From assembly GCA_037447655.1 (NCBI GenBank), contig JBBHKE010002012.1:109945-173944 (forward strand): a DNA stretch of 64,000 nt, read 5' to 3'. The notes below the pieces were generated by a model. The model saw only the letters and a program-made list of their open reading frames with translations, ran no database searches and was not told where the DNA came from. Positions 5,358 to 64,000 of the stretch are shown one piece after another (within the stretch, counting starts at the first letter, position 1; each line of letters opens with the position of its first letter). Position numbers and translations under genes: made by a program. Origin of the DNA: Zygnema cylindricum. Its lineage: Eukaryota > Streptophyta > Zygnematophyceae > Zygnematales > Zygnemataceae.

Positions 5358-5380
5358 CTCCCCTAAAGCTTTAGACTTTG

Positions 5381-8076: not shown

Positions 8077-8503
8077 GAAGTATATGCGACTATACAGGGA
8101 GTAATCGTGAGTAAAGGTGACAAAGAAGCGGCTGCCACCTAGAGAGGGAACTTTAGAAGGGCCGAAAACATCAGAGTGAATAATACCAAAACATTTGTGG
8201 CTCGGTGATCAGAAACTTGTCATATGGGAAGCTTGTGAAGCTTTCCGAGAGCACAACCATCACACACATGAGACTCTTGTTCACCAAGCTTGACTCCCTC
8301 TATCATGTCATGCTTAATCATCTTAGTAAGTCTCTCATGATGCACATGACCAAGTCTTTTTGCCACAAAACATTATCACATAGGACATTGGAATACGCAA
8401 AATCAATTTTATTAGCCAGGTCCATGCGGTACAAAAAGTTTGGGCCTCTAGTTCCTACTAGAGCTTCTCTTCCATTCTTGCCCACTATTTTCTTGCCATT
8501 TTT

Positions 8504-8887
8504 CTAGAGAACCTCAAAGCCTTTGCTTTCAGCTACAGACATAGAAAACAAATTTTTCTTGAACTTTGGAACATACAAGACATCATACAAAGTTCTCTTA
8601 TCAACCTTTCCATCTATCACACAATCCGGATCTATGTTTCTTTTGGCATTTGATTCAACAGCATAACCACAAGCATAAAAGATCTGACGTAAAGGAATAT
8701 AAGACATCTCCTTAAACGAATTCTTGTTCCAGCACATGTGTGAAGAGCTGCCAGAATCCATTATCCATAAGAGGTCCTTTTCTCCTTCCATCATGTCGAG
8801 TTTGGCAAGAGCGAAGAACTCTTTGTCATCAGTTTTTGGAAAACTGAGCACATCAGGTGTCGTTTCCTCGGTCGTTTTCTTCTTCAA
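8504..8887 (-). pseudogene. Copia-3 protease and GAG-pre-integrase region
   Basis: The frame carries WIMDSGSSSHMCWNK, the aspartic-protease active site typical of Copia (DSG(S/A)), followed by YVPKFKKNLFSMS, the conserved motif ahead of the GAG-pre-integrase domain. Between 8077 and 8503 the integrase zinc-binding region is only readable in broken frames (CH-rich pieces such as HVCDGCALGKLH-like and LTKMIKHDMIEG-like). The frame ends at a stop at 8504, so pol is disrupted here. Confidence 0.85.
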
Positions 8888-8983
8888 TTCCGTATCCTCC
8901 GCTGTAAATGCAACACTTTTATTCGGAGGTTTTTGGGAAATAGGAGGTTCGCGGTGTCTCCATCCTTTCTGAAAGGTACCTGT

Positions 8984-9748
8984 TTAAAGCGCTTTTATAT
9001 ACAATGGACAAGCTTTGAAGGAATGACCATCATTATAGCAATAAACACATTTCTCAAACTGAGGATTAAACTGATTCCCTTCATATCTACTTTCCCTTTG
9101 AAACTGAGCCGTAAATGCTACAGCTGATTTTCCAAATCCTAAAACTGTTTGATGAGCCTCTTCTGCTAAGATAAACTCTATAGCTGTTTGCAAATTCCAA
9201 AGAGGTTTAGACAATTTTTTCATTTCATCTGAGGCTCTTTTATATTCATTAAGAAGCCCTTTTAGGAGAATCATGGCCAGATGATAAGGGGAGAAAGTCC
9301 CCCCAGAACATGCATTTTCTGAAAGTAACATTCGAAACCGATTAGTGTATTCCACCATGCTACCACCTGTGTACTTATACTCATAGATCTGACCAGCAGT
9401 TATAATCTCATGGTGGTCACTAGCTTTAACCTAAGAAGATTTCAAAGCATCCCACAATTCTGATGCCTTTGTAACATTAATATATGTCATATGCAATTCT
9501 TTTGATATCATAAGCTTTACTAAATGCAAAGCCTGGTCATTTTTCTGATCAAAGCTGGCATCAGATTCTGCCAGTGATCCATTTAACACATCAATAAGTA
9601 TCACTTGCTTGAAGTAAGACTTAACTAAATCTGCCCAATACAGATATTCGCGTCCATCAATGACCGGAATTCGTGAAGGCGGGCCCGTGACCTGTTGTTT
9701 TGAGACAACTTTTGGCATTGAAGATGAAGAAGATGCTGCAGTAGTCAT
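8984..9748 (-). pseudogene. Copia-3 gag
   Basis: Two frames cover gag. The first (9748 to 9431) starts MTTAASSSSSMPKV and contains the DUF-type gag core (YWADLVKSYF, ELHMTYINVTKASELWDAL). The second (9358 to 8984) continues the UBN2-like gag fold (EYTNRFRMLL, HLAMILLKGL) and ends with a zinc knuckle CVYCYNDGHSFKAC. They are separated by one in-frame stop near 9431. Gag forms the virus-like particle and binds element RNA. Confidence 0.85.
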
Positions 9749-10064
9749 CTAAGAACAAAACAAAAGAGGAAGCTTCCACAAATACAGATGGCTGAACAGC
9801 AACTTTGACAGACTATAACTTTCAGAAAAATGATTCAATGGTCTAGAAAGATTTACCACAGTGTAGATAACATTAAAAGAAACATACACACAAAATTTCA
9901 ATGAATTCCGCTCACAAATCTGTGAGATATGTAGAAATGAAATTACATAAAACTAAGTGTACAGTTTTCATATCATTTGTTCCTAATGAATCAAATTCAC
10001 TAAGTCCTACTTCTATACACTGAAACTACACTAAGCTGTACGGAGGCATTCCAGCCGTACATAT

Positions 10065-16740: not shown

Positions 16741-17520
16741 AGGGTGCGTCTCTATGTACTTCAAACTTAGAGATTTTTTTTTGTTTTTTAGCGCAGATCC
16801 GGCGGACCCGGATTTCGGGTGTCCCTATGTGTACCAAACGAAATTGTCACTTAGGGCGTGACGATTGTATACGTCGACAATGCCCGTGACGGCTGTCAAC
16901 GTCTACAATCTGTGATGACGCACGTTATTTTTCGTAACTGCTTGTGACGTCGCGTGACTTTTCGTGAATTGTAGACCTACCGCCCTCCAGCCTGTGCCAT
17001 TTCACGGTTGAAGAAGATGCGTTTTGACTTTGCGTCTATTGTCGGCTCGACGTGAAATGGCATCGGAACCTTGAGACCTCTGCAAAAAAAAATCCCGTAC
17101 CGGATGGAAACGGACAAAACAAAACAAACTGTGTACTTCTCTTTGTCGTATTAAACAAAAACGGACAAAACATAGCGAATCGTGTACACTTCCACGTCGA
17201 TTGAAAATGTTTGAACTTTTTGAACAAAACATTACACGTGCGAATACGTGTTCCTATTTGTTTATAGAAAATCCCTAATTTTAAAACACATCTGCCCTGT
17301 ATTTTAAAGATAAGGTTGAAGATGACGTTTTTTGTCGTCGAAGTGGGTCGAAGAACACAAGACGACAAGATGTAGTACATTTTAAATTCGATGATGACGC
17401 AAAATGTACTTCTCTTTTTTTCTATTTTATTGTACGGTTGAAACTTACGCGGTACGGCTCTAAGTTTTACAGGAAAACGACAGAAAAAAACCCTTACTTA
17501 AGCACACAGAGACGCACCCT
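16741..17520. mobile_element. MITE-like DNA transposon, copy A (AGGGTGCGTCTCTATGT ends)
   Basis: The left end AGGGTGCGTCTCTATGT pairs with the right end ACACAGAGACGCACCCT; the repeats are nearly perfect over about 17 bp and the element spans 780 bp. A second, highly similar copy lies inverted at 60230-61003. Internal open frames are shared between copies only because the DNA is similar; they show no known domain. Its superfamily is not certain; the ends and size are compatible with hAT-type non-autonomous elements. Confidence 0.85.
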
Positions 17521-18141
17521 AAGTTTCGTAATCGCCACACAGAAGCATCCACGCCACGTGCGAACTTTTTGCATCACGATCTAAAAAGTTGTAAGTGTGT
17601 CATCCAAGAGGTCAAAGGCTTCCCTGAAATTTTTATCGTTCCGTAGATAACAAGTTGAATGCATGCAAGAGAGGGATAGTGACGTCACTTTGTAACCTCA
17701 GATTTTTTTTCAAACTTAATTGGAAACTGAAAGAATAACATTGGCTACCGTACAATTTGGAAACAGAGTTAGGCCTTTTGTTTTCTTAAGGCTGTGGGCC
17801 CAAATCCCAGTTGAACGTGTGGCCATGACAAAGCCAAAATAATAATAAAAGAAAAGAAAGCAAAAGGCCAAATATAAGAGGAAAGCTCAAAAAAATAAAA
17901 AGATTTTTTGTCGTTACTTGTGTTGGATGTTTACTGATCTTTTTACGACAGTCTTCCCACGAATCCTCGCACTAAATTAGTATTGTATATTTTAGTTTTG
18001 CATCAACACTAATAAATCCTTAACTCTGGATAATGATGGGCAATGTACTTCAAATCAGTTGAACATTTTCTCGCAAAAAAAAAAAGAAAAAAAAAAAAAA
18101 AGCTAAATTAGCTAAATTTTCTAGCTCTCACATAAGCAAAT
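17521..18141. other. Upstream region of the LRAT/NC gene
   Basis: The sequence is AT-rich with A tracts near 18077-18101, and no repeat boundary or other gene was seen. It presumably contains the promoter of the gene starting at 18142, but no core element can be assigned with confidence. Confidence 0.4.
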
Positions 18142-20342
18142 ATGTCGTCTAGCAAGTGGGACGATTGGCAAGAGGACAGTTATCAACAAAAGAATATGAA
18201 AAATAAAAAAGCAAAGAAAATGCGGAATGAAGGAAGAACACAAAAAACAAAAAAGTATTCGAAGAAGTGGACGACGGAGGAGCCCGTAAACTGGATGACG
18301 CAACCGGAGGAAAACAACAAGGACTGGGGAGAGTGCACGCAGAAAAAAAACTACAATCACTCGGAATACAATTACTTGGAATATGGGATAGAGGAATATG
18401 GGATGGAGGAAGAAAACTACGATTACTTGGAAAACAGGGTAGAGGAGGAGAACGTGGAGGACTGGGCAGGCTGGACACGGGAGGAATGTGGGGAGTGGGA
18501 GGAAGGTAAGGTTTTAAGTAAAATTGGGTATAGAAGGTACAAGGACAAGGACTAAAAAATGGGTGCTTTGTATGACAATGCTTGACTATTCTTGTAAACA
18601 ATGTTTGAATTGAAACCGAACACGCGGCACAAGAACGAACTAATAAATGTACATTATCATTGTATGCATCATTATAGATACATCATTGTATACATCATTA
18701 TAAATATATTGTATACATCATTATACATATATCATTGTATATATCATTATAAATATATTATTGTATACATCATTATAAATGTATCATTGTATACATCATT
18801 ATAAATGTATCATTGTATACATCATTATAATTATGTGCCAGAAGTTGAAGCGATTACTATAGGAACCAGAGAAATGTAACAGCGGCCTCGCTGTGAATTC
18901 TCAACTTTGCACCTAATCTGGTTAATTTTTGATCCTTTTTTTTTTCTTTTTTGTAATTATTCAGAGACCGGAGAAGAAATCCGTACAATTGAGTACAAAG
19001 GCGAACCCGGTGATCATATCAAGAGTGGTTTGAAGGGAAGGCTTTACTTTCATGAAGGTAATTTCATAGAAAACATAACGAGGAACTAATTCAAGTTCAT
19101 TATGTGGTCCACAAATTGCTACATTTTCTTGAGTTGTTTCACGTGGGACACATGGAAGCAAAAACTTTGCTTTGCCAACATGGCTAATTGAAAACATTCA
19201 ATTTTTTTCCTTCCTCTAGGCAACTCTTTTTTGCAACGGTGTTCGAATTGTATACAAAATCCATTGTCTCTAGAAAATGCCTCTTTATGTCCATTTTTTA
19301 AAAGTCTATAATGCTTAAAAAGTGGAAATGTTGTTTACCATTGACAATATGGTTTGCCAAAATGACATGTATTGTTTGTTAACAAGATTGTTTAAAAGTT
19401 TTTTTTTTGTATTTTAGGCATTTACATGGGCGGAGATCGGGTAATACACCTTATGGGACCGAGAAAAAGCGACATCGCCAAACCTTGTCCGATTTGCGAC
19501 ACGTGTTATGATAGGGATGGTGTATTCCTATCGTGTGTTACATGTTTTGTAGGAAAAGGTCCACAACCAGAAAAAGTTGTGTACAAATGGCTAAAAGAAA
19601 GTCCACCGAAAGAAGTTCTCGCAAGGTGTGTGTTACAAAAGAAAAAAATACATAAATCTCAACATCTGAGGGTCTATATGGTTTATATATAGTTGTGTGG
19701 TTATGTTTACCTCTCAAGGATAGAAATGTGATCTTAGCGAAAAGACGTTAATGATAACATCTTATTAAAGTTGGGTTGCACTCTCCAGGATCTTTTTGCA
19801 TAAATGTAATTAAAATAAAATTAGCATCTTCTAATCTTCCTTCATAACAACCATGTGATCCACTTTCGCTTTCTATACTTGGTCAGTTTAAATTTGTGTC
19901 TGATCTTTGCTGTTTGCTACTCATTTAAGGTAACAAATAAGTAAAATAGTAAGGTTTATGAAAAATGCCGGATGGTAAACCATTTTGAGTACATGGAAAT
20001 AAAAGAGAGGAGTATCCAGAAAGAAAACTGATAAAAGTCATATAGGACCAAAGAAACCAAAAATCAAAATCACATACATTATAAGTCAACTGATTGGGTT
20101 GAAAAAACTTTGTTTTGACGGAGTTTTGGGACAGGGCTGAAGAAGAGTGGCGCAGCAATTCCCGAATATACAATATAACTGATTGGAACTGCGAAAATTT
20201 TGCATTGTTTTGTAAAACTGGGAAGAACTGTACTAGCACTCAAGTTGTTAAACTGATGGTCTTTGGTTTTTTAGCTGCTGTACCGCTCCATTTCCTTAAT
20301 CGCTTTATTCCACCTCCCTTTCATGTTGTGAACTATGTATAA
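18142..20342 (+). CDS. LRAT/NC-domain protein (four exons)
   Basis: Exons by splice site and phase: 18142-18505, 18965-19057, 19418-19625, 20135-20342; all phases agree and give about 290 residues. Residues 1-121 are a charged, Trp/Glu/Lys-rich N-terminus of unknown role. The NC/LRAT fold starts about residue 122 (GEPGDHIKSG). The catalytic set is visible: His151 in FHEGIYMG, His163 in DRVIHL and Cys241 in WNCENFALFCKTG. As in plant NC proteins, an insert with paired cysteines (CPICDTC, then CVTC) sits between them. A hydrophobic C-terminal segment (LMVFGFLAAVPLHFL) is the usual membrane anchor. LRAT/NC proteins are thiol acyltransferases or phospholipases on lipids; substrate unknown here. 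Exon 1 is the least certain part. Confidence 0.78.
18650..18832. repeat. 26-bp minisatellite in LRAT/NC intron 1
   Basis: About seven imperfect copies of a 26-bp unit (tgtatcattgtatacatcattataaa). The last three copies are nearly identical. It lies between exon 1 and exon 2 and is not part of the coding sequence. Confidence 0.85.
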
Positions 20343-20943
20343 GACTTTATCAGTTTTTACTCTAGTGACTATTTGTCGTATATCTTAAACTTTGTGTCGA
20401 TTGTTTGACCAAACGATGCTCTAAGAATGTTACTAAGCAAGTTATTTTTTTACTATTTTAGGATCTTTCTCGAAGCTCTAAGAATGTTACTAAGCAAGTT
20501 ATTTTTTTCTATTTTGGGATCTTTCTGGTATAAAAGCAGTTTTTTGTACTATATGGACTTATGTTTTTCTGCAATCCGGAAAGGTTACTTACAAACAAAA
20601 GATACATTGAAGGCGATATCTTTTATGTTAAGCTCAGGAATAAAATGACGAATAATATCCTTTTGATGCTTTGGTTTTTACAAAAAAATGTAAAGAGAAT
20701 TAATATTTAATGGGAGTCAAATAACAATATTTAGTGGGATGGCAAGAATTAGGGTATTTTCTTCAAACAGATGCTTTTGAAAATACAATGGCCAGAACAT
20801 CCATTCTCTCTCCCCCTCCCTCACTCTCTCTTTCCCTCTCTCCCTCTCTCCCAACCCCTTCTCGAATTCGTGAATCACTATTAAAATGTAAAATAATCAT
20901 GGTTGTTTCTAGAATGTAAGGTAATTATTAGTGTGGGACTATA
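20343..20943. other. 3' flank of the LRAT/NC gene with a 57-bp tandem duplication
   Basis: The unit gctctaagaatgttactaag... at 20418-20474 is repeated at 20475-20529. A CT-rich stretch follows at about 20800-20850. No gene was recognised. Confidence 0.6.
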
Positions 20944-21135
20944 GAAAGGAAGAAAGAAGAAAGGAAGAAAGAAAGAAAGAAAGAAAAAAAAAGATAAAGA
21001 AAGGAAGAAATGAATTAAGGAAAGTAAAGAGAGAAAGAAACATGAAAGGAAAGTAGTGAAAGAAAGACCCGGACCGGACCGGACCGTCCGTCCGGACCCG
21101 GGTCTTTCCGGTTCCGGTTCGGTTCGGAACGGTTC
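20944..21135. repeat. Polypurine (GAAAG)n tract and GC-rich CCGGA repeat block
   Basis: A GAAAG/GGAAG-rich tract (20944-21065) runs into a compact GC-rich block at about 21067-21133 made of CCGGA units reading in one direction and then the other (ccggaccggaccgtccgtccgg), followed by ttccggttcggttcggaacgg. The block is self-complementary. Confidence 0.75.
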
Positions 21136-21170
21136 AGTTTTTGGAACTAAAATAGTAAAATGTTATTCCA

Positions 21171-21492
21171 TAGTACACCGTGTATCGCTATTAGTGTTAA
21201 CACTGCTAGCGATTCACGGTGTACTGTAATGCCCGGTCATGCACAAAGTGACATTGCGTGACGCGACACAAATCGAACGGTTCTCTCGAACCCTAACATT
21301 TCTTCCGCGGAGTTTATAATAGCGTTATTAATTCGCCAAATGACGTGGCTTGTTTCTAACCGTTTGAATAATTAGCGTCAAGAAATAAAAACATAGTATT
21401 CTCGCCAGTATTTTAGGTTCGAGAGGCAAAATTTAAGGGCACCGATATAGTGCCATTCACGCTAACGACGATACACGGCGCACTGCAGATAA
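21171..21492. mobile_element. Foldback element of the ATTAGTGTTA family
   Basis: The left part tacaccgtgtatcgctattagtgttaac is matched in inverted form by cacgctaacgacgatacacggcgcactg at the right. A further internal hairpin (gctagcgattcacggtgta) lies near the left end. The GTTCTCTCGAACC / GGTTCGAGAG pair is inverted as well. No coding capacity. Confidence 0.55.
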
Positions 21493-22380
21493 TCTCCAAA
21501 TTTCTGGTTTAATCCAAAAGTGTTGCCATAACGCGTGGTTTGCCACTTGATTTTTGTAACCATCACTGTAAGAACCAACATCCATCATTGGAATAACCTA
21601 ATGTTGAAGTACAATTTGAGTTGTGTATTTAGTGATATGTACTTCTCTTAGTTGTACTTTAGTGCGCATGTTATTTTCTATGCGGAACTGTTGTTTCACG
21701 TCAGTGTAATGTTGATTCATGTAAATGTGTTTTTGTGTACGGATACCCTTATTACTATCCGGACACACTTTTGTAATCATTGTACTTATTTTGTCTCTTA
21801 GTTTAGTGAACATTATATTCGACGGTTACATACGTCGTACCTTTTCACGCTTACGTTGTACTTTCACAATATTCATTGTAGATTAGTGATTTTTTCATTA
21901 TAGATTCCTTGTACGAAATATTCTTTCGTTCCTAACTTTGCCGTCCACCGACTTTGTCATTGGTCGTCACCAGTAATACCTTTTTTGTCCTTTGCGGCTT
22001 CGATTCTTTTGTGGACGTCGTGTAGCTCGTCCACTCTAAATGTAGAGTTATACTTAGTACTTAACCTGTTCATTCTGTACATTCAAATCTAACCGATTAT
22101 AATGAGAAGACAATTTCTCCCCTGTGCTTCTCCTTTTTGTATTCCTCTTGTCTTTTTTATCTTTACCTTTTGCTTCCATATGTTACTTTGCCATGATTAT
22201 AATTCCATTCATCTTTGATATCTTTCTCCGGTTTTTCTCTCTTTCGCCCATCATGCCCTTACCTTCTACACCTAAAAGAAGCATGAAAACTTTACAAAGA
22301 AGCAACATCTGCAGCAAAGCTGAGGATTGCAATCAATCTAGATTTCTCTTCTGCCTCCGAGTAACATTTGAGACGACCAG
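21493..22380. other. Upstream region of the SKIP16-like gene
   Basis: No repeat boundary or gene was recognised. Open frames (for example 22124-22501) overlap the F-box exon in another frame and show no domain. Confidence 0.4.
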
Positions 22381-33932: not shown

Positions 33933-35969
33933 GGAAGCCGTGGCCGCAAGAAAATTTAAGAGAGAGAGAGAGGACGTAAAAAGTTAAGCCTCCCAGTAAA
34001 GCAGTTTCTCCATGAGGAGCTGCCACTATTTGTACAGAAACATTTACTTGTAGTAATTTTCAGGCCAACTTGCTCTCATGTCGTGCCAGTAGACTAACTC
34101 TTGTATATGTGCTTGATATTACCTGTTTTTATAAGGATTCAGCTACCATAGCCTTAATTTGATAACCTGGCTTAGCTTGGCTAGATTGCTGATTGGCTAG
34201 TAGCTTATGGAAGAGAAAGAGCAATGTCTTGTAAAGCATATCCTCCGTCCTGTAAAGCTTCAGCAAAACCTGGCAAACGCTTTTTAGCATGTTCTTGCCA
34301 ACTAAACTTTTCACCTGTTGTAGTTTCTTCTCCTTTCAATAAAGCAATCTGTACATAACCCGAACCACCTTGTAGGCAAAGATATAAGGTATATGCTGAT
34401 AACCATCATGGTAAGCTGAGGGTGATCAATCAAGATTCTCCGAGGGTCCATGCGTAAACGTTAACCGTCCGATGGTTTTTTATCGGCATCCGCGGATTTA
34501 CCGCTCTGTCCAGCCAGCAGTATGGCGCTGCACCGCTCATCGTTATTAGTGTTGAAAAAAAATAATACTGATAAAGATGAACGGTCCATGTACGAATGCG
34601 CTCATGCATGGAGGAACGTGAGCTACAAACTGGCGTACAATCGCTGCGCTTTTGAGATTGAGTTCCAACATAGACGGCCTATGGACAACCTGTCACGTCG
34701 TATGTCACGTCGCATGGGCCATGTGACTGTTGTAGATGGTGGATGCAAATCCACCAAAAGCGACCAGGAAATCTTACTCGGAGGATATCCTCTCACCCAT
34801 GCGAAAAGACAGCATCAGGGAGGATGGGATTTGGGTTTTAGAACGTCACAGCACGGATGGGTTTCTCTCACTCTCCTTCCCTCCCTCCCTCCCCGTTTAC
34901 GCTATTTTTTTTGGTCATTTGAACAGCATTACTTATTATTCTTCTTTACAAAAAAAATCGGCCAAACTCCTTTCAAGTTGAACAATTTTTGAAAGTTTCG
35001 CCAAAGAGTTCACCTTACATCTCCATAAGAGTTGATAAAAATAATTCGAGAGAGAGAGCTCTTTTGCCAATTACATAAATTAGTGTTAAAAAAACTATTT
35101 AGTTGAATGGCCCATAATGGTTTACCATTGTGGTTTCTTAATTAAGTCTTATTCCACCCATAATGAGTCTTGTGGAAAAAACAGGATTTACTTTTATCTC
35201 TCTTTGCACATAGTTGACTCTAGTATTTCATCTAAACTCTAATAGCGTTGAAAGAAGTACCGTATGCAATTTAAGTTTACTAGAAACACAGGAAATTCTT
35301 TTGGCTTAATTAACAAAAGTAATGTCTTCATTCGTTCCTTTTAACTTGCACATTTACAATTTCAAATATTTATAAGACCAGCTTTGTAGTTTCTTCTTTC
35401 CTTTTTTTGTTCTTTGTTCCCTACAATAGGTCATTAATTTGGTTTTGAAACATATGAAGCCTCAACTTGATTACAAAAGAGAAATTAGAAAAATCTGATC
35501 ACAATTCAACATACCATGCTTATAATAGTTTCAAAAATATGAATTCAGCACAAGAATGTAACACAGAGTAAAGACGGTTTTACTAATTTTCATTTACCAT
35601 GAAAATTTCCGGCACTTAAAACTGGAAAAAGAATATCGAAAAAGAATATCGAAAGAAACATCAAACAAAAGGTTCAATAAAATATACTTTAAAGGATCAT
35701 TAAGGTAACCAAAGGCAGCAACACCTTTTATTTCTTTTTTGCAAATGAACTTTATACTAAGAAAAAAAAAAAGACAAAATGGTTAAAAAAAGAAAACAAC
35801 AACAAAAAAACCCAGACCTCAAAAAGTGCCTCACAGAAAGGTCGTACATTATTTCGTATGGACAAAAATGGCAATTAAATATTCAAAACCGCCTAAAAAT
35901 GGTTCCCAAATTTGCATAAAAAATGGAAATCTCAAAGTCACGGTAGAAAACGGGTATAGCTATTAGATT
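33933..35969. other. Intergenic region between the BTB/NPH3 5' end and the PheRS 3' end
   Basis: An (GA)n run sits at about 33960-33972 in the presumed 5' leader of the BTB/NPH3 gene. The block caccgctcatcgttattagtgttg at about 34531-34555 matches the end of the ATTAGTGTTA foldback elements. The 156-residue frame at 34522-34992 has no recognisable domain. The rest is AT-rich with no feature seen. Confidence 0.45.
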
Positions 35970-50863
<14,894 letters not shown>

Positions 50864-51233: not shown

Positions 51234-52540
51234 TTACAGCAGCCCAAGCCTCCGGCGGTCTACCCCATAGGTTAATGTTGAATTCCAATCCTCTACCCCT
51301 CCGGCTAGGACGCTACTGCTGACAACTTCCGCTAAAACTTCCGCTAAGCTGTCGCCATCTGAGCCGCCGCCCCCCCCCACTGGGAAAACCTGCGGTGGTG
51401 AAATGTGAATTTTTCTCCACCTTTCTCTCCCCCCCTCAAGCTGCAAAGTTGCCTGCATCGCTAACAACTGAGGAGCTTGAAGGTAAACAGCCCTAGATTC
51501 CGGGGACTTGAGACTGGAAAAGGCGAGTGCATGCTTGAGTACCCATGTGATCGAATTCAAGTCCATATTCTGTCCAATTAGGCTACACCTATGAAGGTTT
51601 GAAATATCTGGTGCTGCCGTGGTGCCTTTATGAAATCCCATCGCTTCTTCCCGTTCTGCAATCGTCGGTGTTGTCCAGATTCCCGCCTTATTGTCAAAAA
51701 TCATTCCCGTTGCTCCTTTCCGATAAGCGTGACTGTGAGGGAAAGAAACCAAAGTCGGGAGTGCTCTCCGTGGTAATCATAGTTTGTTGCACCGAAAGAA
51801 AGGAGAGCGGTCTGGTCACGTCACAGGGGTGGCCATCCTGCCTTCCCCAAGTATTTGCTGCACCAAATTCTGAGGGTCGAGAATTTGCTTGTCTAACAGT
51901 CGTCAGAGTACTGGAAGCGGGATCATATTTGTCCAATATGCCCTTACTCTGTGTGCACGGGATCCCATCTGTGCGGCGTCGAAACCCAAGGGAGCTCCTA
52001 AAATCCGGGTTACGTGATTCCAGATGTCCGCAACCTGTTTCCTTTTATCATCTCCCGGGTTGACATTTTCCAGAACATACACCACTGCTGTGTCCTGATG
52101 ATGTTGAATCCACGTGATTAATTCGATCATCCGGTGAAATGTTCCACTTCTGCAGTCTATATGCCCTTTTCCTTGTCCGTACATTTTGGGGAAAACTTCG
52201 GTGAGCTGTGGAAATGGCTTTCACTGGAAGTTGTTGAGGATATAGGTGATGAAACTGGTGGAGGCGGTGTTCGCTGACTGCCTGCGCCTCGGGTGATATT
52301 TCCACGGCCGCGTATGACTCCACCAGATATCTTGTTTTCAAAACCGCTTCCAAATCGGAACTAATTCCTGAAAATAGAGATAAAATACGCAGTCCGGAAT
52401 CGGAGACTGCCAATGACACCACTAGTCGATTGAACTCCTCGTTACCGGACTTAGGTTTGGAAGCATTAGACAGTGGTGTAGAAACGACTTCCTTCAATGT
52501 TAAGGCTGAAAATGCCTTATCCACTCCCCGCCGGAGTTTT
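51234..52540 (-). pseudogene. Retroelement-encoded cytosine-C5 DNA methyltransferase, catalytic loop lost
   Basis: Motif I reads RILSLFSGISSDLEAVLKT (S-adenosylmethionine binding; usually FSGIG), followed by YAAVEISPEAQAVSEHR. Then YVLENVNPGDDKR (motif VI, ENV) and GFDAAQMGSRAHRVRAYWTN (motif VIII, QxRxR-like). The C-terminal part has VSFPHSHAYR, EREEAMGFHKGTTAAP and LIGQNMDLNSI (motifs IX-X). The Pro-Cys of motif IV should lie between PVKAIS..FPQNV and GHIDCRSGTFHRM but is absent in all frames at about 52180-52260, where the frame also changes. At least three frames are needed to read the whole domain. The architecture matches methyltransferases carried by LTR elements in some algae rather than host MET1/CMT, as no BAH, RFTS or chromo domain is nearby. 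Confidence 0.85.
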
Positions 52541-52549
52541 GCTACCTGC

Positions 52550-53186
52550 AATAATCGATTCTTACATTCCTCTTCCCACTGCTTGGAAATTGGGAATTGC
52601 TAGATTTCTTTGGCGATATCTGTAGAACTGCCAAACAGTTCCGTCGCAGATGATGTAGTGTACACCAGGTAGCAACCAAACACTGGGACTTTTGTCTTCC
52701 CCCGGTTCCATAAATCCAAAGAACCACCACTTGGGTTCGTTCCGGATTTTTGGGGTCCCGGACGGTACATTCTTCCTTCCACACGCTCAAACTCATATTG
52801 AGCCGAGTCCAAGTGGCCATTCCCAACAGAATTTTGAATCGAGTCCCTCTAACCACCAAAAAAGGAAGCTCAATTTTCACCCGTTGGCCTCCGTCATCAA
52901 AAAAATTGATGTCCATGGCCTTAATTATTCCATGGGCTGGTTGACTGCCGCAGCTTAGGGTGCTTAAGCAGATATTGCTTGGGCAGATTTCAGGCCGGAG
53001 TTCCTCGGGCATTTTTTGCAAAGCGGAGGTGGTAATGAGGTTGGGGAGAGCTCTGGTTTCGACCACAACGTCCTGGTATCCCACGTACCCGTTGAGCTTG
53101 AAGTTCCCGATACGGTTTAGTATAAGAGCCACTGATAAGGCTTTATAGTCCCTATCCACTATAGGGGTTTTACGATCGGTGGACAA
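52550..53186 (-). pseudogene. Retropepsin-like protease domain, degenerate active site
   Basis: The frame contains VVVETRALPNLITTSAL where a retroelement protease has a hydrophobic run, DTG/DSG, then PNLIS, and later PFLVVRGTRFKILLGMATWTRLNMS, like the flap and the ILGxxxL helix of retropepsins. The catalytic Asp-Thr-Gly reads Glu-Thr-Arg, so the enzyme could not work. The position between the gag zinc knuckle and the methyltransferase fits a gag-pol order. Confidence 0.65.
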
Positions 53187-53553
53187 AAATACTGCGGGTT
53201 GGCGGAGTGGTCCTGTCTACCCCCCCACTTTCCAGAGTGGATCTCCTCTCCCAATGCCTGAATGAGGATTTCTTCGGGCAGGTTGTGGGAGGATGCTAGA
53301 GTCTTCACGTGTGTGAGGGCATAGGGGGTGAAGTGTCGGACTAGCATGACAGCCGGTTTGGAGGATGGAAGTGTTGCTTTCGGTGAAGATGGGGATGAGT
53401 TCGGTTCCTGTAGATCCGGATCTTGTCTGCATCTTGTCCGGATCTTGTCTGCATCTTGTCTTTCTTTCTCACTTTCAGAGCCGGAATCTAGGATTGGAGG
53501 AGTTTGGGGAGTGTCATTTTCCAGGCGTTCGGCCATATATCTCTCAAACCAAC

Positions 53554-56500
53554 CTAATTCTCCTTTTTCTCTCGTTCCATTGACTCCTTCTCTCGCTGTT
53601 GTTTCTCGTTCTGGTAATTTTCGAAACCGAGAGGCAATTTAGGTTTGGAAGGAAGAGATGGGGATTGAATGGGTTTGAATCCTAGGCCGATGTCGCTGTT
53701 CAGCATTACTGCCCGGGGAGTAAACGACAAAGGCCTTGTAGCTTTCCGTTTGTGATCCCGCTGACCCATTTTTTGCATGTCCTGTCTTTGCATCGAGGTG
53801 GAACTACGGAATTGGCGCCGGCTGTCTCCCACCCCAACATTCCAAGTTCCAGACAGAAAGGTTCGGGCAGGGTGAGCATTTGGGGGTTCCAAATCCCAGC
53901 CCAATAAGTCGTCATCGTTGGCACCCGCGGTGCCTTGAAGCTCAAGCTCTGCGAGCTTCAGCAACAACTCGCGTTTCTGCTTTTGAAGTCGTTGTGCTGC
54001 TGTGAGAGGAGCAGGTCGGGAAGAAGATCCTAGGCGGAGGGCAGCTAACTCTGCAGCCATTGCTGACTTGGTTGCTGGATGATGATCTCCGGCGTAAGCC
54101 TGGCGGGAGCAGCCGGGGCTCGTTCAGATCTCTCCGGCGTGGACATAAGTTGGCGCCCCTAAGGGTAAAGTAGTTGGAGGGGGAGAGGGTTAACAATTGT
54201 TTCTCCTTCTCCAGTAAAGAAAGCAAATTGCATTATTTCCTTGGGTAATCCATTTTTCCGGAAACATTGGCCTTCCTTATGCCCCATAAATCCACAAGCT
54301 TCGCACTTGGCGCCATCGGTGGTATATTGACTCCAGATTTCGTTGGAGATTTGACATCATCAAACTTTGGAAGTTTGATTTGCCGCAACTGAGATTGGGA
54401 CATTTTAGAGGTTTCGCTCCGTGGAGTTGGACGGTAAGTTTCTTTAGTTACCGGGGTCTTGTCCTCTCCCCTCCCTCCCTTGAGCTTTTCTTGTTGTTTC
54501 AAGGTCTTTTTTGCACGTTCTTTCTTTCATTCGTTAAGTTTCAAAAGCAGCTCCAGTTTAAGTTTCCTGGTTTAGTGCTTCCACCCATGACCCGGTTGCT
54601 GACAATTCATGCAATTATAGACAAATACTTACTCATCTGCTCCCATAACTAGCTGTGACCCGCTGTCAGCCACTTGCTTCCCTTTAAGATTCCGCAAAGC
54701 TTGAAATTCAGCCTGTTCCTCTTCATTCAATGAGGTTTGCCCGGCGAATCGTGCAAAATTTGCTCGGGCTTTGCCGGTCACGGCCTTCTCCCTTGCCTTA
54801 CTGTGGACGAAGTGGTCATATAATTTCATCGCCACCAGTGAGAATTCTTTGGCGGAGGGATTGATGTCTTGAATTACTTGTCCACCAATCCAGTTTTCTA
54901 GAGTAGTGTGCCTTGTCGGTCCTAATGAATTACGGACAACGATAAAGTATTTAGTTGCCGTTGTCGGAAGGTCAATCGTGGAAAGTTTCGTTTTCTGGCA
55001 AAGGCTTGAGGGTCAGTTGAAAAGAGTTTGGAGAGTCTCGTTCTTCAAGCATCGAAATTTCGTGAATTCCTTGATTGCTGACTCGTTCCTCTCTGTGTAG
55101 AGCAGTCTCCAGATGTTCAGCAGAGTGGTACAAGGGATTAGCAACCATGCGAGTTGCTGTCTAGGCTGCCTGAATGGCTTGCAGCTGGTTAACATAGGCA
55201 CTTCCTTGTACCAACAGTTTCATGTCCTGTGTGAAGGTAGCGGTTACAGGGGTTGCAGCCGCTGCCGCTAAGTCAGCCTCCGCTTGCAGAAATGCCGCAT
55301 CAAGGACTAGATCCGAGATCTTGATGCTAGGAGCCATCAAAAGAGGTTGATGCTCCTTGTAATCTGCCAACCCCCCTCCAAAAAGGTAGTTGACCATCAT
55401 GGGGAAGAGGGTTGTTTTGAAGTCATCCGGAATGGCTCCTCCCCGGTACTTATTGATTTCGGCTTGTGTGAAAGATTTCCACAACAACTCGAAATCCGAA
55501 AATGCGATCCCCGAGCTATCTTCGTAAAGATCCGGATATCCCCCATTTCATTTTGTTCCTCTGCAGGGTTGGTGAAATGGGAAGAGGAAGGCCAGGTGGG
55601 ACTGATATACTGAGCCGGCCACATGACTCCCGTATCCTCTTCCTCGAGATCGGAACCGTGTCCTCCTCCGGTAGAAGGTGCTGCCCTGAGAGGTGTGGAT
55701 CCCCCTCCCACAAAGGAAGTACCAGCGTCCGAAAATATGGTGGGTGGAAGGATGTTCCCCACTACTCCTCTGTATCTAGGAGAGTATTGTTCCTCCCTGA
55801 GAACTTGCTCCACTGATTGGATGTAGAGGCGAGGTCGGCCCAAAAGAGGTCCTTGGGGAATGGTTGGCGACGAAGACGGAGACAAAGTTTGTTGGGGCCC
55901 GGTTGGATAAGGCGTATGTTTCCAGGTTTGCCTTTGGAGGTCTCGGAAGGTGGAGTTCCGGAACTGGTGGAAGGGGAACGCTTGTGAGGAGGTGAGTAAG
56001 CGGAGACGTCGTGTTTGAAAGGTAAAATAGGCGGCTCGGGAGGCCCCCGGACTGCAGCAACGAGAGAAACGGATGGTGAAGGGCAAGCCCGGGGCTCTAT
56101 AGTACGACCCGGGGAGTGAGAGGAAGGAGGAGGAGGAGAATATGGGAGATATGTAGATGCTCAGAGAGGTGGTGAAGGGGGTGTTGACGGCCTCAAGGTG
56201 ATGTGAATCCTCTCGTGCGGTCGTAACTCCACCAAAGCCTCCAGTGTCGAAGACACCTCCACCGAGACCAAGGTTGGCTCTTCGCGAGGAATAGCAGTAG
56301 ACTCAGTAGGTAAATCTGCACCCAAACCTCTCCTATTAGGTCCTTTTGTTTCCCTCCCTTCCCGGTGAAGAGGAGGCTCTCGGCTAGGCCCTGAGGAAGG
56401 AACGTCAGGCTGTGTGCTTGCCAGAGGAGAAGTTCTCAGAGCTGGTGCTTCGGCATGCGGCCCGGTCTCTGGTGTAGGAGGGGTCTGCCCGCTGAGAATC

Positions 56501-57658
56501 CCACTTGTCCTACGACGAGCTTCCCGAATAAGCATCAATTCCTGTTCCCATACCTTTCTCCTTTCTACCTCCAAGGCCTCCCAATCTACGGTGGCAGGTC
56601 GGCCCCCGCCGTAGCCTGTCCCTAGGATTTTAGAACCTCCACTAGCTCCTTGGCCTTTTTGACCACTTTTGTGAGATCCGCTGTCCCCACCCCCGGAATT
56701 TCGGGATCATTGGGTCTAGTCCGCCACCATCCCTCGGACAAATTTTCTGGTCCCGAACCTGGAACCTCTGGTTTGGTCGTTTTGGATCGCCAGAGCCCAT
56801 CGGCAGGGTGGACACGAGTTGCTGTAGGAGCACGTTTCTCGGTTGAGACTGACACAATAGTGGGGGACGTCTCCTCCTTGGGAAAAGGTGCGAATCTCCC
56901 CTTGTTGTCACGGTGATCAAACCTCTTTCCCCTCAATGGGTCTCGTGCTTCCCTCTCGATACCCCCTTCTCCTCTACGAAGCCGCGAAGGGGTACGCCCC
57001 CGAGAGGGTATGCTGGCTGCGTTGTTCGAGAGGAAGATGGGGGAGGGCGAGAATAGGGAGCTCTTTGGGAACGGTCCTGCACCGACTGTGAACAGCTGCT
57101 CTCCGAAAAACTGCTCAAAATCTCCACCACCCCTCCCACGGGTCTAACCTCTCTGACTCCATCTGTCCGAGCCACTCTGTGTACCAACTCCTTCTTCACC
57201 TTCAGCTCATAGAGGTCGTGAAGGGCAAGGGGTTCTTTACGACCTGGGCGACGTGGATCCATCAAAACCGCGGGGTCAATCTGGATCTCGGCCCGGGGAA
57301 CTTTGGATCTGGTGTGAAGCCCGACCTTCGGAAGAGGACCCAAATGAGTCTCCCTATGCGTCTGCCTCTTTGGCCGGGCCCTGGGAGACACTCGGTTCCT
57401 CTCTTGGGCCTGAGCCCGAGCTTCATTCCTTTCCTTAGCATAGGCCCTGGCGGCCTCCGCTAAGGAGGGGTAATGTTCGGGAGTCAGACTTGGAGGAAGA
57501 GGAGGAGAAGAAGCACTAGCTGGTTCGTTGGTCGAAGATTCTAAGACAGACTCCATGGGTACAGAATCCTTTGACATCTGAGACTTTTCCTCCTGTACGG
57601 CCCTCTCCTGCCGACCCTGCTCTCCAGATCCATTATGCGGAGTCTCTCCTCCCACCAT
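53554..57658 (-). pseudogene. Gag-like region of the DNMT retroelement
   Basis: Several long minus-strand frames (57658-56933, 56936-56622, 56574-56161, 56086-55397, 55487-55161, 54835-54629, 54060-53554) form a broken polyprotein. The N-terminal part is Ser/Pro/Arg-rich and disordered in character. The middle part (KSFTQAEINKYRGGAIPDDF, LFPMMVNYLFGGGLADY, and MAMKLYDHFVHSKAREKAV) has the helical look of a gag core but no family could be named. The frame at 54060-53554 (KQKRELLLKLAELELQ, a short coiled coil) lies after the zinc knuckle. Confidence 0.6.
54264..54305 (-). pseudogene. Gag CCHC zinc knuckle
   Basis: CEACGFMGHKEGQC follows the C-x2-C-x4-H-x4-C spacing of retroelement nucleocapsids. 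It is read in a frame different from the longest open frame here. After the knuckle the same frame continues FRKNGLPKEIMQFAFF. Confidence 0.8.
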
Positions 57659-58920
57659 GATGACAAAGAGAAATAGTATTAAATGTAACTAGTGCTCACT
57701 TCCAAAAAGAGAGCTTCCAAATATAAAGCTCGTATCCCCGATTATCCGAGCAGACAAGTAGCTTTTCAGTACTATGCTTCTTCTAAGGTAAGTCTATCGC
57801 ACTTGTTCCCTCAAAACCCACTGTCCTCATCCAAGGGGTTTTAGTTTACTCCGGAATAGTAACTCCAAAGCTAAGAGAACTCCAGATGAAGACACAAATG
57901 CACTACCATGTAGATAGATATAAATAAATATGATTGGCTTTCCAGATTTAACAATATCACCTTGCCCCAGAAAAGAGAATAAAAGATAGAAAATGTGATA
58001 TGTGACGAAGGAAGCTTAACATACACCAACAATCTAAGATGACAATTACGAAAAGGCGGCCCCTCTCCCGATAGTATCATCAAAAGGTATGGTACTCCTA
58101 CAACCTTTGGTGTTCGCAGCTCGGAACCGACCAGACTCTTCTCGGTTCCAAACAGCAAAAAGTCCAAAATCACCCAAAAGGGAACCGACCAGACTCTTCT
58201 CGGTTCCAAACAGCAAAAAGTCCAAAATCACCCAAAAGGAAGATAGTGCCAACTACCCGCCCGGACTGTGATTTCCACAAAAGAAGGTTTGTTGGAATTT
58301 CTGAGGGTTTTCTCAGGAGACAGTACTGAAAAGCAACCTGTCTCTTTCGACCCCAAGTGCTTTATACATCAAAGTTTGTCAAATTGCAGGTCTAAAAGTC
58401 AAAGCTACTATATTAACAAATGAGCGGCAAACAAGTGTAATGGAACTGACATAAGACAAAATAATCCGTACAACACTCGGGGCAAAAAATTCTGCTTCGG
58501 ACTGCGGCTAGATCCGCAGCCGAAAGTAATTATTTGGTCCACTATTATAAGACAAAGTCTTGAAAAATGACACTAATTTGCCAGACTTTGACCTAACGTA
58601 ATTAATGGACCAAAAGTCAACTGAGCCTGAGCTAACTTCCAACTGACGGCTAACAACATAATCTAGATGCAAATGCGGAAAGTTACGTGGCAATCCACAA
58701 TGTACACCCCACGGAGGCTGTCGGAAACTCGTCCCATGTAACGGAATTGCAATCTTTGAAACGGAAGAACTAGGTCATTTGGCCTCCGTTAGACGCGGAA
58801 TAAAGTGTGTTCCGCTCAGTTTAGGAAATACAAGGATCTTGTCCGGCTTGGTGCACTCCCTCCGCCGTACTCTGAATACCGTACAGGGTAAAAAGGGCCC
58901 GGAAATCTTTGGTGATATAA
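57659..58920. other. Right flank of the DNMT element with a 58-bp tandem duplication
   Basis: The unit ggaaccgaccagactcttct... occurs at 58123-58180 and again, nearly identical, at 58181-58238. Short frames that span it are duplicates of each other. No LTR terminus or primer-binding site for the DNMT element could be identified in this stretch, although it is where a 5' LTR would be expected. Confidence 0.6.
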
Positions 58921-58939
58921 AGGTATGTCTGAAAAGCAC

Positions 58940-59091
58940 ATGAGCTTGACAGTAGCCGATATTATCGGCTACTTATCGGCAATAAGACCGATAGCGATAT
59001 ATCGTACCAATATATCGATTATCGGGTCCCCGAAAAAAGGCCCATATCGGTTATTGGCAAATCCTTACCGATACACAACACTACAAAATAG
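58940..59091. repeat. Partial foldback element abutting 59092-59533
   Basis: Rich in cgatatatcg and atcgg words and ends ccgatacacaacacta at 59083, nearly the right terminus of the neighbouring element. Its own left terminus is missing, so it looks like a truncated older copy. Confidence 0.6.
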
Positions 59092-59533
59092 TAGTGTTGG
59101 GTATCGGGTAGTTTCATATCGCGATAATTTCGATATTCGATATATCGAATATCGATTGAGCAGATTCCTCGATATATCGTACCGGGACCAACATAAATTA
59201 TCGCGATGTATATCGCAAAATTTGCATATCCGTACAGTCAGAGTACGGAAAACCGTACGAAAAAGAGTAGGAGAATCGTACGAAAAATCGTACGGATATT
59301 TTGCCCGCCCCCCCACCCCCCCGAGCGCCGGGGGGTGGGGGGGGGGGGGGGTTTGGAAAAAAATTCCAAAATTTTCATTTTCGATATATCGTCGATATGA
59401 TATATCGGCGATATATTGGCGATATATCGCGATAATTTGAAATTCGATATATCGAAGCGATATATCGAATATCGGGTACATGAAATTCGATATATATCGA
59501 ATATCGGCAATGGGTCCTCGATACCCAACACTA
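59092..59533. mobile_element. 442-bp hAT-like foldback MITE with 8-bp target duplication
   Basis: Terminal inverted repeats TAGTGTTGGGTATCG... and ...CGATACCCAACACTA enclose 442 bases and are flanked on both sides by the perfect 8-mer CAAAATAG (59084-59091 and 59534-59541). The interior is composed of overlapping cgatatatcg palindromes, with a GC hairpin at about 59304-59352 (C/G homopolymer arms). Eight-base duplications are characteristic of hAT transposons. There is no transposase, so it is non-autonomous. Confidence 0.9.
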
Positions 59534-59541
59534 CAAAATAG

Positions 59542-60229
59542 GCACATATATTTTTTTGTATTTTTTTTTTTTACACAACACTTTGATTCTCGTCAGCTTT
59601 TTTTCCGGGGGGCTAACATGGCAATTCTCAATTTCAATTAGCTGACTTCTACGGTGCACTGTGATTTGTTTTTATCGAAGGAACCAACGTCAGTATTTCA
59701 TAATCACGCATGCCCACGAGGGCTTAAAGTCCGTCCCTTGACTCAGAGCGTGTTTTGGAGCCGTACGCTGGACTGTACTTTTACTGGATCGTGGCGACAA
59801 TCTTATCGACAAAAAGGTGGTTGGAAAACCGTACGGCTGTCTTGCCTAAAAGACAAACATCTGTCCTTATACGGAAGCCGAATGGAAAAACGAAAAGTTG
59901 CTTTGCGGAGACGAAAGAATCTTTACGATATTGTTGCATGGGGGAAATCTCCAAATCCCTCGGAGGTTATGCCACGTGTTTGTTAAAGATGACGTGTAAA
60001 ATCTCAAATGCGTGAACTTTTTGGTTTCACGTGGGGCACAAAGCGCAGAAGTGGACATTTCAAAAATGTCCGTACAACCATATCACATTTACACACGTGT
60101 AAAAATCGAGCGAAAAGTGTCAAAGGAGAATTTCTCACTTTTGAAAAAAACCAAACACGTAACCCAAAAACGGTAAGCGACAGAATTGTCAAGTTATTCG
60201 TACAAAAAGACCGCACGAGGAAGAAAGTT
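59542..60229. other. Spacer between two DNA transposons
   Basis: No recognised gene. Frames at 59654-59986 and 60008-60256 are Lys/Arg-rich without known motifs. Words such as tacggtgcactgtg and ccgtacg recur, as in the other MITE-rich parts of the window. Confidence 0.45.
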
Positions 60230-61003
60230 AGGGTGCGTCTCTATGTGCTTAAGTAAGGGTTTTTTTCTGTCGTTTTCGTGTAAAACTTAGAGCCGTACCG
60301 CGTAAATTTCAACCGTACAATAAAAAAAAAAAAGTACATTTTGCGTCATCATCGAATTTAAAATGTACTACATCTTGTCGTCTTGTGTTCTTCGACCCAC
60401 TTCGACGACAAAAAACGTCATCTTCAACCTTATCTTTAAAATACAGGGCCGATGTGTTTTAAAATTAGGGATTTTCTATAAACAAATAGGAACACGTATT
60501 CGCACGTGTAATATTTTGTTCAAAAAATTCAAACAATTTCAAGCGACGTGGAAGTGTACACGATTCGCTATGTTTTGTCCGTTTTTGTTTAATACGACAA
60601 AGAGAAGTACACAGTTTTTTTTGTTTTGTCCGTTTCCATCCGGTACGGGATTTTTTTTTGCAGGGGTCTGAAGGTTCCGATGCCATTTCACGTCGAGCCG
60701 ACAATAGACGCAAAGTCAAAACGCATCTTCTTCAACCGTGAAACGGCACAGGCTGGAGGGCGGTATGTCTACAATGTCACGAAAAGTCACGCGACGTCAC
60801 ATGCAGTTACGAAAAATAACGTGCGCCATCACAGATTGTAGACGTTGACAGCCGTCACGGGCATTGTCGACGTATACAATCGTCACGTCCTAAGTGACAA
60901 TTTCGTTTGGTACACATAGGGACACCCGAAATCCGGGTCCGCCGGATGTGCGCTAAAAAACAAAAAAAAAACTCTAAGTTTGAAGTACATAGAGACGCAC
61001 CCT
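60230..61003. mobile_element. MITE-like DNA transposon, copy B (inverted relative to copy A)
   Basis: The termini AGGGTGCGTCTCTATGT and ACATAGAGACGCACCCT enclose 774 bases. The sequence is the reverse complement of 16741-17520 with few differences, including the shared internal blocks gacaatgcccgtgacggctg / cagccgtcacgggcattgtc and gacacccgaaatccgggt. The high similarity implies recent amplification. Confidence 0.88.
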
Positions 61004-61793
61004 AAATCACCTGCCGCGCCGTCAACCAATCACATCTTTACATCTGTAAGACCTACTTAATGCTTGCAATATTTTGGCGCGCACATGCGTAAGCATGACT
61101 GCGCCGACATACATTGTCCACCAATGAACCTAACCAGCTTGGTATCCACCGACCAAAATCTTACAAGTACCCCCAAAACTTACGAGTACCACCAAATCTT
61201 CAAAGAACAACCAAAGGCTACAAGTACAGCCAGAATCGTACACGTGGCATATGACGTGTGCTAGCCGCCAAATACGCCAAATGCCAAAAAGACGCCCTGG
61301 GACCACCGGACCATTCTTTTTTTGACTTGGCGGCGACTGCTTCTTCGGGATCCACGCGCCACTGCCAAAATTTAAAAAAGCACCAAAAAAGGGAAAAAGA
61401 CGCGCCATTTTCAAATTTTAAAAAACACAAAAAGAGTAAAAAGAAGCGCCACTGTTAAAATTTCAAACTGTTAAAATTTAAAAAAAACCTAAAAAGCGGA
61501 AAATAAGTTTTCCCTCCAAAAGTTTCCTCCGCAAGTATAAAGAGGAGAGTTCGCTCTCTCCCCTTCTCACCTACTCTTCTGTTGTACCTTTGATGACTTT
61601 CTCTCTCTCTCTCCCTCTCCCTCCTCCCTCACTATCTCACCATGCCGTCTAGTTTCGTCTTCCCCTCTCACTCCTCTCCCTCCTCCCCCTCCTCCCCCTC
61701 CTCCCCCCCAACCTCTACCATGTCTTCCTTCTCGTCTCACTCCTCTCCCTCTTTTGCCTCCTCCTCCTTTTCCAACCTCTCTGCCCACCCCTT
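61004..61793. other. Spacer with CT/CCTCC-rich tract before the last LTR element
   Basis: At about 61598-61790 the sequence is CT- and TCC-rich; the Ser/Pro-rich frame that starts at 61642 continues into LTR sequence and is not a gene. Blocks such as aaaatttaaaaaa and accaaaaagggaaaaa recur at 61370-61500. Confidence 0.5.
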
Positions 61794-63353
61794 TGTTAGG
61801 ATTATTGGAAGAATCGGCGGATCAACCGAAATCAAGTTTTGGTTCGATGTGGAGAATCGGTCGTCCGCGGATTTGTTGACGTTTTGGTTCGCGTGGCGTG
61901 ATCTCCAATTTCTCAGTGACTGCGACAAGTTTGAGAGTTGGAGAGAGAAGTTAGAGATAGACTGCCTCGACTTCTATATTTCTTTTCAGACCTAGAAAAT
62001 ACTAATAAAACCATTAGTTTCTACAAGTTGGTGAACTGGTACAGTATCGTATGTACATGAAGTTCCAGTTCATTTTGACGCTAAAATTTTGAGGAGGAAG
62101 AAGAGACGTTACGTGTTGGAGCGCAGCCGGTATTTTGCCGGTTGTTTCGGTCGTTTGCTATAGTCAGGCGTCGAACTGGAGTGTGGCCGACTGGCCGCTA
62201 TGTTTTTTTTTGGTACTCTGTTGGTACCTTTTTTTGGTGTGACATTGGAATGTGGAGTTGGAAGTACGGCAAAACTGTTCGAGTGTTACAGTCAAGCCTA
62301 TTATGGTGCGGCGGTTACCTAAATCGCTATGTGGATTGGTAGAATCGCTAAGGAATGTTGACGCAGCTGTTTGTACGGTTGCCAACTAAAGAGGAGTGAA
62401 AATTAAGTTTGATTTGGTGTGACGGTTGAAAGTCCGAGAGGAGATCATTTTAAGGTCTCCTAAAATAGATTGCGATTACATGAATCGCTGTGGAGTTATA
62501 CAGACGCCGTGAAGATTTGTATTTACAAAATCTATTTGGGCGTATCTGCGATGGAGGATTATTTGTTCCGTACAGGGTGTCAATCGAATGCCTCATGTAC
62601 TTTGGAGAAGGAACGATGCCGGATATTACGGCGTTCGGTTTTGGACGTCGAAATATATCGTCGGGCAAGGAGGAGTTATTATTCGACGGCCAAGCAATAT
62701 TTTCCGTATCTTTTGGTACGATGGAATCGGGGTTCGTCTTTCAGTTAGGAGTTGTCCGGATATTATTTCCGGGTATTTTGGCGGCTACAGTACTGTATTG
62801 TACTTTTTTTTTCGTCGTCATATTTTTGGTGGACGTGGATTTATTTCAATTCTGTTTACGCAGATTTTCTGGTACTTTATTAGTACCATGTGTACGAAAA
62901 TTTTAATTTGTTTTTATGATGGAGGTTGTGACGCAGAGTTATTAGTTTACGTTGACGTGGATTTGCGGCTTGGATTTATCACATTTGATTTCGAAATTTC
63001 ATCGCAGGCTTCAGTTTGGAGCGGCTCGAATGGTGACGTGCCATGTGGCGCAACTAAATTTATTTTTGGGTGGTGACTAAAATGCAATCCGCAAATGGAT
63101 GTTATGTGTGAGAGAGGGGCGACAAAATCGGGAGTTACACTTGCCGTGGTCCTCCCGGTAAAAAAAAAAAACAAAAAAAAAAGAAAAGTAAAAAAATACT
63201 TAATTTGTGTATAGCTAAATTGGTCGTTGGTGTAACAATTTTTTCTGTCCACATTAATGCTCGATCTTGTACTTTTGTACGGTGACATGTTTAAGAGGGG
63301 GCGGCTAAAATCGGTGGCGTGGCATTCCACCGCTTCTCCCAATAAGAGGGGGA
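61794..63353 (+). mobile_element. Non-autonomous LTR element, 5' part: LTR start fragment and internal region
   Basis: A 109-bp LTR start (61794-61902, TGTTAGGATTATTGG...) is followed by unrelated sequence instead of the rest of an LTR. From about 62340 the sequence is related to the internal region of the 10065-14668 element (gttgaaagtccgagaggag, gtactttggagaaggaacgatgccggatatt). It ends with a polypurine tract (aataagaggggga). No gag or pol domain is present. A deletion inside the 5' LTR and leader is the simplest reading. Confidence 0.72.
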
Positions 63354-64000
63354 TTGTTAGGATTATTGGAAGAATCGGCGGATCAACCGAAATCAAGTTT
63401 TGGTTCGATGTGGAGAATCGGTCGTCCGCGGATTTGTTGACGTTTTGGTTCGCGTGGCGTGATTCGATTTTGAGTATGGTTTGACGATTTGCATCGGAGT
63501 ACCTTTGGTTCGTTCAATTTACGGCGGTTTAGTACTAGCCGGTACATAGATAATTTCTGCATGATGGTTCAGTTTGGTCGTGTCACTGGTGACTATGATA
63601 TTCAGTGCGCTATACGTGTCTAGTTCATTTTACGTGTCTAGTGCATTTTAGTGCGTGTCACTTTGTTTTGGCGGTTGAATGTTTTTATTAGGCGCACGTA
63701 CGCATGTGGACTTCGGCGCCCTCGTCTGTTTTCAGCTACTGGAGTAAGTGGACATTAGCTGTCGGTGTTAAGAAGGTATATTAGCGTGTGTTACTATCAG
63801 TTCAGTATGCAGTCTGGGGAGATGCATCATGCAGTCTTTAGGAAGAGATGCATCATGTGTCTGCAGGGAGGATACATTAAAAAGTGAGAGAGGGAGAGGT
63901 TGTATTGAAAAGCTAAGGCTTAATATATTGATATTTGGCCTTTATGATTTCTGTGAGCTGTGAGTGTTTTATGTGTAAGAATGTTTATTCAAAGCTTCCG
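63354..64000 (+). repeat. 3' LTR of the last element, running off the window
   Basis: Begins TGTTAGGATTATTGGAAG immediately after the polypurine tract; its first 109 bases are identical to 61794-61902. Near the window end, atatttggcctttatgatttctgtgagct and caaagcttccg resemble the 3' part of the LTR at 13688-14668. The right terminus lies outside the window. Confidence 0.8.

Follow-up and report, generated by a model that had tools for sequence, protein, structure and literature searches.

The window, by which we mean the whole stretch of 64,000 nucleotides of DNA that was analysed, carries at 51234-57658 a decayed retroelement whose parts all lie on the minus strand. A gag-like region with a CCHC knuckle, a protease block and a C5 methyltransferase follow one another there in the order stated by an earlier note on this DNA. 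Open reading frames of at least 150 amino acids (stop to stop, 51234-57688) sum to 1841 amino acids on the minus strand versus 170 on the plus strand, and the same sum in 300 first-order Markov sequences had a mean of 141 and a maximum of 797. The element ends 372 bp before the first coding exon of the host gene for PheRS beta (50803-50862, minus strand, start placed by eye), a call that rests on B5 and CLM domains further on and on a match to PheRS beta in the PDB (E 0.0034).

The gag region is preceded by a 5′ terminal repeat, termed A, at 57776-58951 of the minus strand. It starts with TGTC, contains a 58 bp tandem duplication at 58123-58238, and its outer limit was set at the only TGTC in 58700-59200. 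Over 58488-57902 (608 columns) it is 70% identical to the repeat A of a better-preserved copy on contig C1374 of the same genome, which it also matches over 58655-58622. Furthermore, AGTACTGAAAAGC stands after repeat A in both copies. An initiator-Met-like primer site was searched for in the window and none was found. The repeat beyond 57658, the loss of motif IV and the stops described below go beyond what the earlier note had recorded.

The gag region (54260-57658, minus strand) consists of several broken open reading frames. Its zinc knuckle, CEACGFMGHKEGQC at 54264-54305 of the minus strand, was located by a pattern scan that gave only two occurrences in the six frames of the window, this one (54305, minus) and one in a Copia gag (9049, minus). 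The frame with the knuckle matched zf-CCHC_4 only with an E value of 0.13, below the cut-off. A second knuckle, with a stop in place of the last Cys, was recognised by eye at 54572-54613 of the same strand. No scanned gag frame had a Pfam or NCBIfam match above the cut-off; the scans of window frames covered ten with Pfam and three with NCBIfam, and none matched. The protease-like block (52720-53186, minus strand) was likewise not recognised by Pfam or NCBIfam and had no meaningful match in the PDB, and a structure model of its frame from the single sequence reached a pLDDT of 36.8. The retropepsin motif is D-T/S-G; at the site where it is expected, the block has ETRA. The block is nevertheless 67-72% identical to sequences beside the enzyme in five other copies, and 47% in L015. 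The block, earlier described as retropepsin-like, is thus conserved next to the enzyme and is a candidate retropepsin.

A linker in a third frame (52566-52720, minus strand, by eye) leads from this block to the methyltransferase. A tblastn search with the related metagenome protein P0027 matched the window with an E value of 3.6e-64 over 52178-51423, and motifs I, VI, VIII and IX-X, which had been claimed from the letters alone, are indeed readable; their order from I to X is not permuted. The N-terminal half (52180-52565, minus strand) contains motif I, LSLFSG, at 52366-52383; 43 of 111 residues are identical to P0027, and identity to five same-genome copies is 55-60%. The C-terminal half (51510-52178, minus strand) contains ENV at 52062-52070, QMGSRAHRVRAYWTN at 51927-51971, RALPTLVS at 51744-51767 and LIGQNMDLN at 51555-51581. 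Pfam found no match in the joined window methyltransferase. At the junction of the halves (52178-52182, minus strand) the frame changes and 29 residues, between residues 111 and 141 of P0027 and including motif IV, WPCQ, are absent. AGWPCQ is kept in all six of the nearest same-genome copies, whereas it is lost in the window copy, and three TGA stops interrupt the C-terminal half on the minus strand (51903, 51816 and 51777). A reading of TGA as a sense codon was considered and dropped.

The copy ends at 51237-51510 (minus strand, aligned to P0027 391-417), within the start of the linker that leads to the reverse transcriptase (RT) in P0027. The RT, RNase H and integrase of the methyltransferase-carrying family had no match in the window, and no 3′ repeats were found for this copy. 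These data indicate that the window copy is dead, 3′-truncated and mutated, with frame shifts. Since its DNA is only 70-74% identical, over the longer aligned blocks, to the copies L021 and L024 described below, it is old. The CpG observed/expected ratio was 0.685 in the element, 0.741 in the left flank and 0.493 in the Copia copy of the window, so that the element shows no marked CpG depletion.

Better-preserved relatives were searched for in the same genome (352,776,454 bases, or 352.8 Mb, in 2689 contigs). At least 123 methyltransferase matches were scored among 782 candidates (best E 1.1e-11), many of which lie in long open reading frames, and host genes may be among them. Twelve stretches of 10 kb were fetched, and in every one of them RT-RNase H and integrase come after the enzyme, with all these parts on one strand; the twelve were picked from the 123 for their long open frames, and the proportion is therefore not a census. 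Two loci, L021 (contig C1374) and L024 (C544), contain the gag pieces of the window, the protease block, the enzyme, RT-RNase H and integrase in order, in keeping with the earlier proposal that a retroelement carries the methyltransferase. Identities to the window were 32-60%, 79-80% and 65-67% for the successive gag pieces wGagB, wGagD and wGagC, 75-78% for the knuckle frame, 68-69% for the protease block and 57-68% for the enzyme. Four shorter loci (C633, C1042, C412 and C507) also show enzyme and protease block side by side, which brings the contigs with this linkage to six and excludes the case that no other copy would join the enzyme to gag or protease. The gag pieces and the protease block are real parts of the element, since other loci of the genome show them in the order seen here, ahead of the same enzyme. 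A PHD finger, possibly a chromatin-reading targeting domain, follows the integrase in eight of the twelve stretches (L022, L023, L025, L027, L028, L029, L031 and L032); these eight loci, in which neither the gag nor the protease of the window had a match, represent a second family. One of the eight top genome loci, L019, matched none of the queries.

The repeats of the family are split, in the order A-coding-B-A-B, in three of the four copies whose flanks were fetched. On C1374, the A repeats (20612-21797 and 35682-36866) are 97.8% identical over 1186 positions and the B repeats (35463-35680 and 36868-37084) 99.5%. On C1344, the A repeats (85514-86444 and 94981-95911) are 100% identical over 931 positions and the B repeats (94737-94978 and 95912-96154) 99.6%; this copy is therefore young. 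It starts with TGTC, ends with GACA and is flanked on both sides by a 4-base duplication, TTGG, while no target-site duplication was seen on C1374. In both copies, B ends in GACA and the A that follows begins with TGTC, and the two are separated by the bases GC. C449 has the same order reversed, with A pieces of 128-360 bp that are 74-96% identical, and C544 showed A before gag and no second A in the stretch fetched. The earlier note had spoken of an LTR retroelement and proposed a search for copies with repeats and RT or integrase: such copies exist (C1374 and C1344) and terminal repeats are present, but they are not plain LTRs, and the window copy keeps only the 5′ A. An element with a DDE integrase may replicate through the split-repeat cycle that is elsewhere a feature of DIRS-like elements, and the two features together pose a question about its replication cycle.

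Protein searches gave 2, 25 and 5 relatives of the enzyme, at least 30 of them distinct; the search that gave 25 scored only the best 7996 candidates by shared words. Pfam detected RT, RNase H, integrase or gag in five of ten relatives scanned and then in all five of a second set, the enzyme part of P0020 and P0031 being below its notice. The named sources are Closterium (P0015, P0018 and P0022) and the label jgi/Chrzof1 (P0011), which we take to be Chromochloris zofingiensis. Among the best 60 of 64 matches of a 15-row profile, DNMT3A/B came first (DNMT3A, E 1.5e-12), followed by the cytosine-specific methyltransferase 3g7u (2.1e-7), HhaI (2.9e-6), 4onj (9.2e-6), the DRM2 chains (2.8e-4) and DNMT1 (E 0.5), ranks to be read with the limit that DRM scores are lowered because the DRM motif order is permuted. 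The 4onj chain is named DNA methyltransferase in its record and is presumably tobacco DRM. A structure model of P0027 (mean pLDDT 72; 271 of 685 residues with a value of at least 90) retrieved DNMT3A-DNMT3L first in a fold search (E 3.5e-19, TM 0.85 by target length). Profile and predicted fold both place the enzyme closest to DNMT3A/B; the trees held no plant host enzyme.

In P0004, P0020, P0029 and P0030 the enzyme does not precede RT; it is placed after RNase H and ahead of the integrase, or immediately ahead of the zinc domain of the integrase, which is a second position in Pol. A search of viral contigs with query A1 gave 59 stretches and one relative, a phage enzyme; query A4 gave 51 stretches and 11 matches, all within query residues 5-211. 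The phage contig L001 encodes at 7971-8912 a DNMT3-like methyltransferase with RNYWTN. The viral fold search returned a mixture of enzyme and RT matches, and a search of genome contigs gave 101 stretches and no relatives.

In a tree with the genome copies (19 of 30 proteins used; L027, whose enzyme match was broken in two, was left out), the window enzyme groups with five same-genome copies (100/99), next with L015 and then with P0027 and P0028 (99/99), and the second family forms a separate clade (100/99). The window enzyme is 70% identical over 285 columns to its nearest relative in the tree. An earlier tree without genome copies, from which P0017, P0019, P0021 and P0023 of the 30 were omitted, had weak support (84/25) and placed the enzyme-before-RT proteins outside the enzyme-before-integrase group. 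In the later tree P0031, with the enzyme before RT and a long branch, fell inside that group, and domain order therefore does not track the tree strictly. Five copies gave ten pairwise comparisons of the enzyme: dN/dS (Nei-Gojobori) was 0.12-0.36 in nine of them, and the two sequences of the tenth pair were identical. Between L021 and L024, the sole pair of the first family in which all three parts were compared, it was 0.15 for the enzyme versus 0.08 for RT and 0.07 for integrase. The enzyme is under purifying selection, though less constrained than RT and integrase. Most dS values of the second family were saturated.

The nearest proteins outside the genome are P0027 and P0028, two JGI metagenome proteins of the same enzyme clade that also have the enzyme before RT. 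RT-RNase H and integrase of L021 and L024 are 74-76% and 76-77% identical to P0028. The C1374 copy has 76% in RT-RNase H and 77% in integrase but only 48% in the enzyme, and the enzyme has therefore either evolved more quickly than these two parts or been exchanged. The corresponding values for L022 of the second family are 55%, 59% and 40%. The three Closterium proteins likewise have the enzyme with gag or RT, with WECQ present in them, but form a separate clade (100/100); the P0022 enzyme is 28-41% identical to the genome copies, and identities of P0022 to these copies run only from 24 to 51%, which makes Closterium an unlikely host. Excerpts of PMC5890265 describe KnitGypsy-Dnmt3 of Klebsormidium nitens, which shares Gypsy-type domains, a DNMT3-type enzyme in Pol, a DIRS-like repeat order (Fig. 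4 legend; the A-coding-B-A-B wording is in the Fig. 1 legend) and purifying selection on the enzyme; it differs in its host and in a Ka/Ks below 0.2, against the range found here. The present family likewise combines enzyme, RT, RNase H and integrase in one element, with a non-rearranged DNMT3-type enzyme. No protein named KnitGypsy-Dnmt3 was among the at least 30 relatives found, and the comparison is one of described features. SymbioDIRS-Dnmt3 and SymbioLINE-Dnmt are also retroelement-borne DNMTs, but with DIRS or LINE machinery, and represent separate captures according to the same excerpts (PMC5890265). An excerpt of PMC12344493 names LTR Copia and DIRS families. Among the literature matches listed, we recognised no report of a methyltransferase-carrying retroelement in a land plant. 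Should the host be a land plant, which is somewhat less likely than not, one published statement would have to be corrected.

In our reading, the window almost certainly holds a 3′-truncated, mutated copy of a multi-copy Gypsy-type family with the order A, gag, protease, DNMT3-type methyltransferase, RT, RNase H, integrase and B-A-B. The kind is already known from Klebsormidium, and the genome of the window is a further streptophyte-type host record. Working members would copy through RNA, integrate by the DDE integrase and, we infer, methylate DNA, in the simplest case their cDNA or freshly inserted copies. The earlier idea of an element that methylates its own copies is impossible for the window copy, with motif IV lost from its catalytic residues and three TGA stops. 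Against the reading as a truncated Gypsy-type copy stand the absence of RT, integrase and 3′ repeats from the window copy, the protease block without a profile match, C1374 without a target-site duplication, C544 without a paired A in the stretch fetched, and the lower constraint on the enzyme than on RT and integrase.

A copy without RT or integrase is also what a non-autonomous subfamily would show, with gag, protease and methyltransferase only and moved by full members. This is very unlikely: the window sequence enters the linker leading to RT in P0027, the nearest copies possess RT and integrase, and no 3′ repeat follows the window copy. Bryophytes and Klebsormidium have host DNMT3 genes (PMC5890265, section 9), and a decayed gene of this type could have come to lie next to unrelated retroelement debris; however, the genome contains further copies in which gag, protease block and enzyme are linked, and in the tree the window groups with them (100/99), which makes such an origin extremely improbable. 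The stops, the frame shifts and the loss of motif IV leave a negligible chance that the locus is a domesticated, element-derived gene still in use, even though it lies just upstream of PheRS beta. For the truncated Gypsy-type copy and its family, it is a puzzle why a parasite would carry a methylating enzyme in a host whose silencing works through methylation. A second streptophyte-type genome is a place to test it: the copies there are many, the repeats of one of them are identical, and the enzyme is under purifying selection.

Domains of NPH3, BTB, F-box, SUKH and PheRS beta proteins are encoded in the window and point to a plant-type genome, NPH3 being a plant family. The Copia element lies at 4513-10064 of the minus strand, and its end repeats have 92.5% identity over 374 bp. 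A pair of inverted repeats of 788 bp (16741-17527 and 60223-61003) is 96.6% identical, and an LRAT domain is encoded at 19396-19689 of the plus strand (E 2.6e-5). Repeats like TATCGATATATCG occur near 59000-59540, and the CpG observed/expected ratio is 1.27 in 58300-64000 versus 0.74 in 1-51000.
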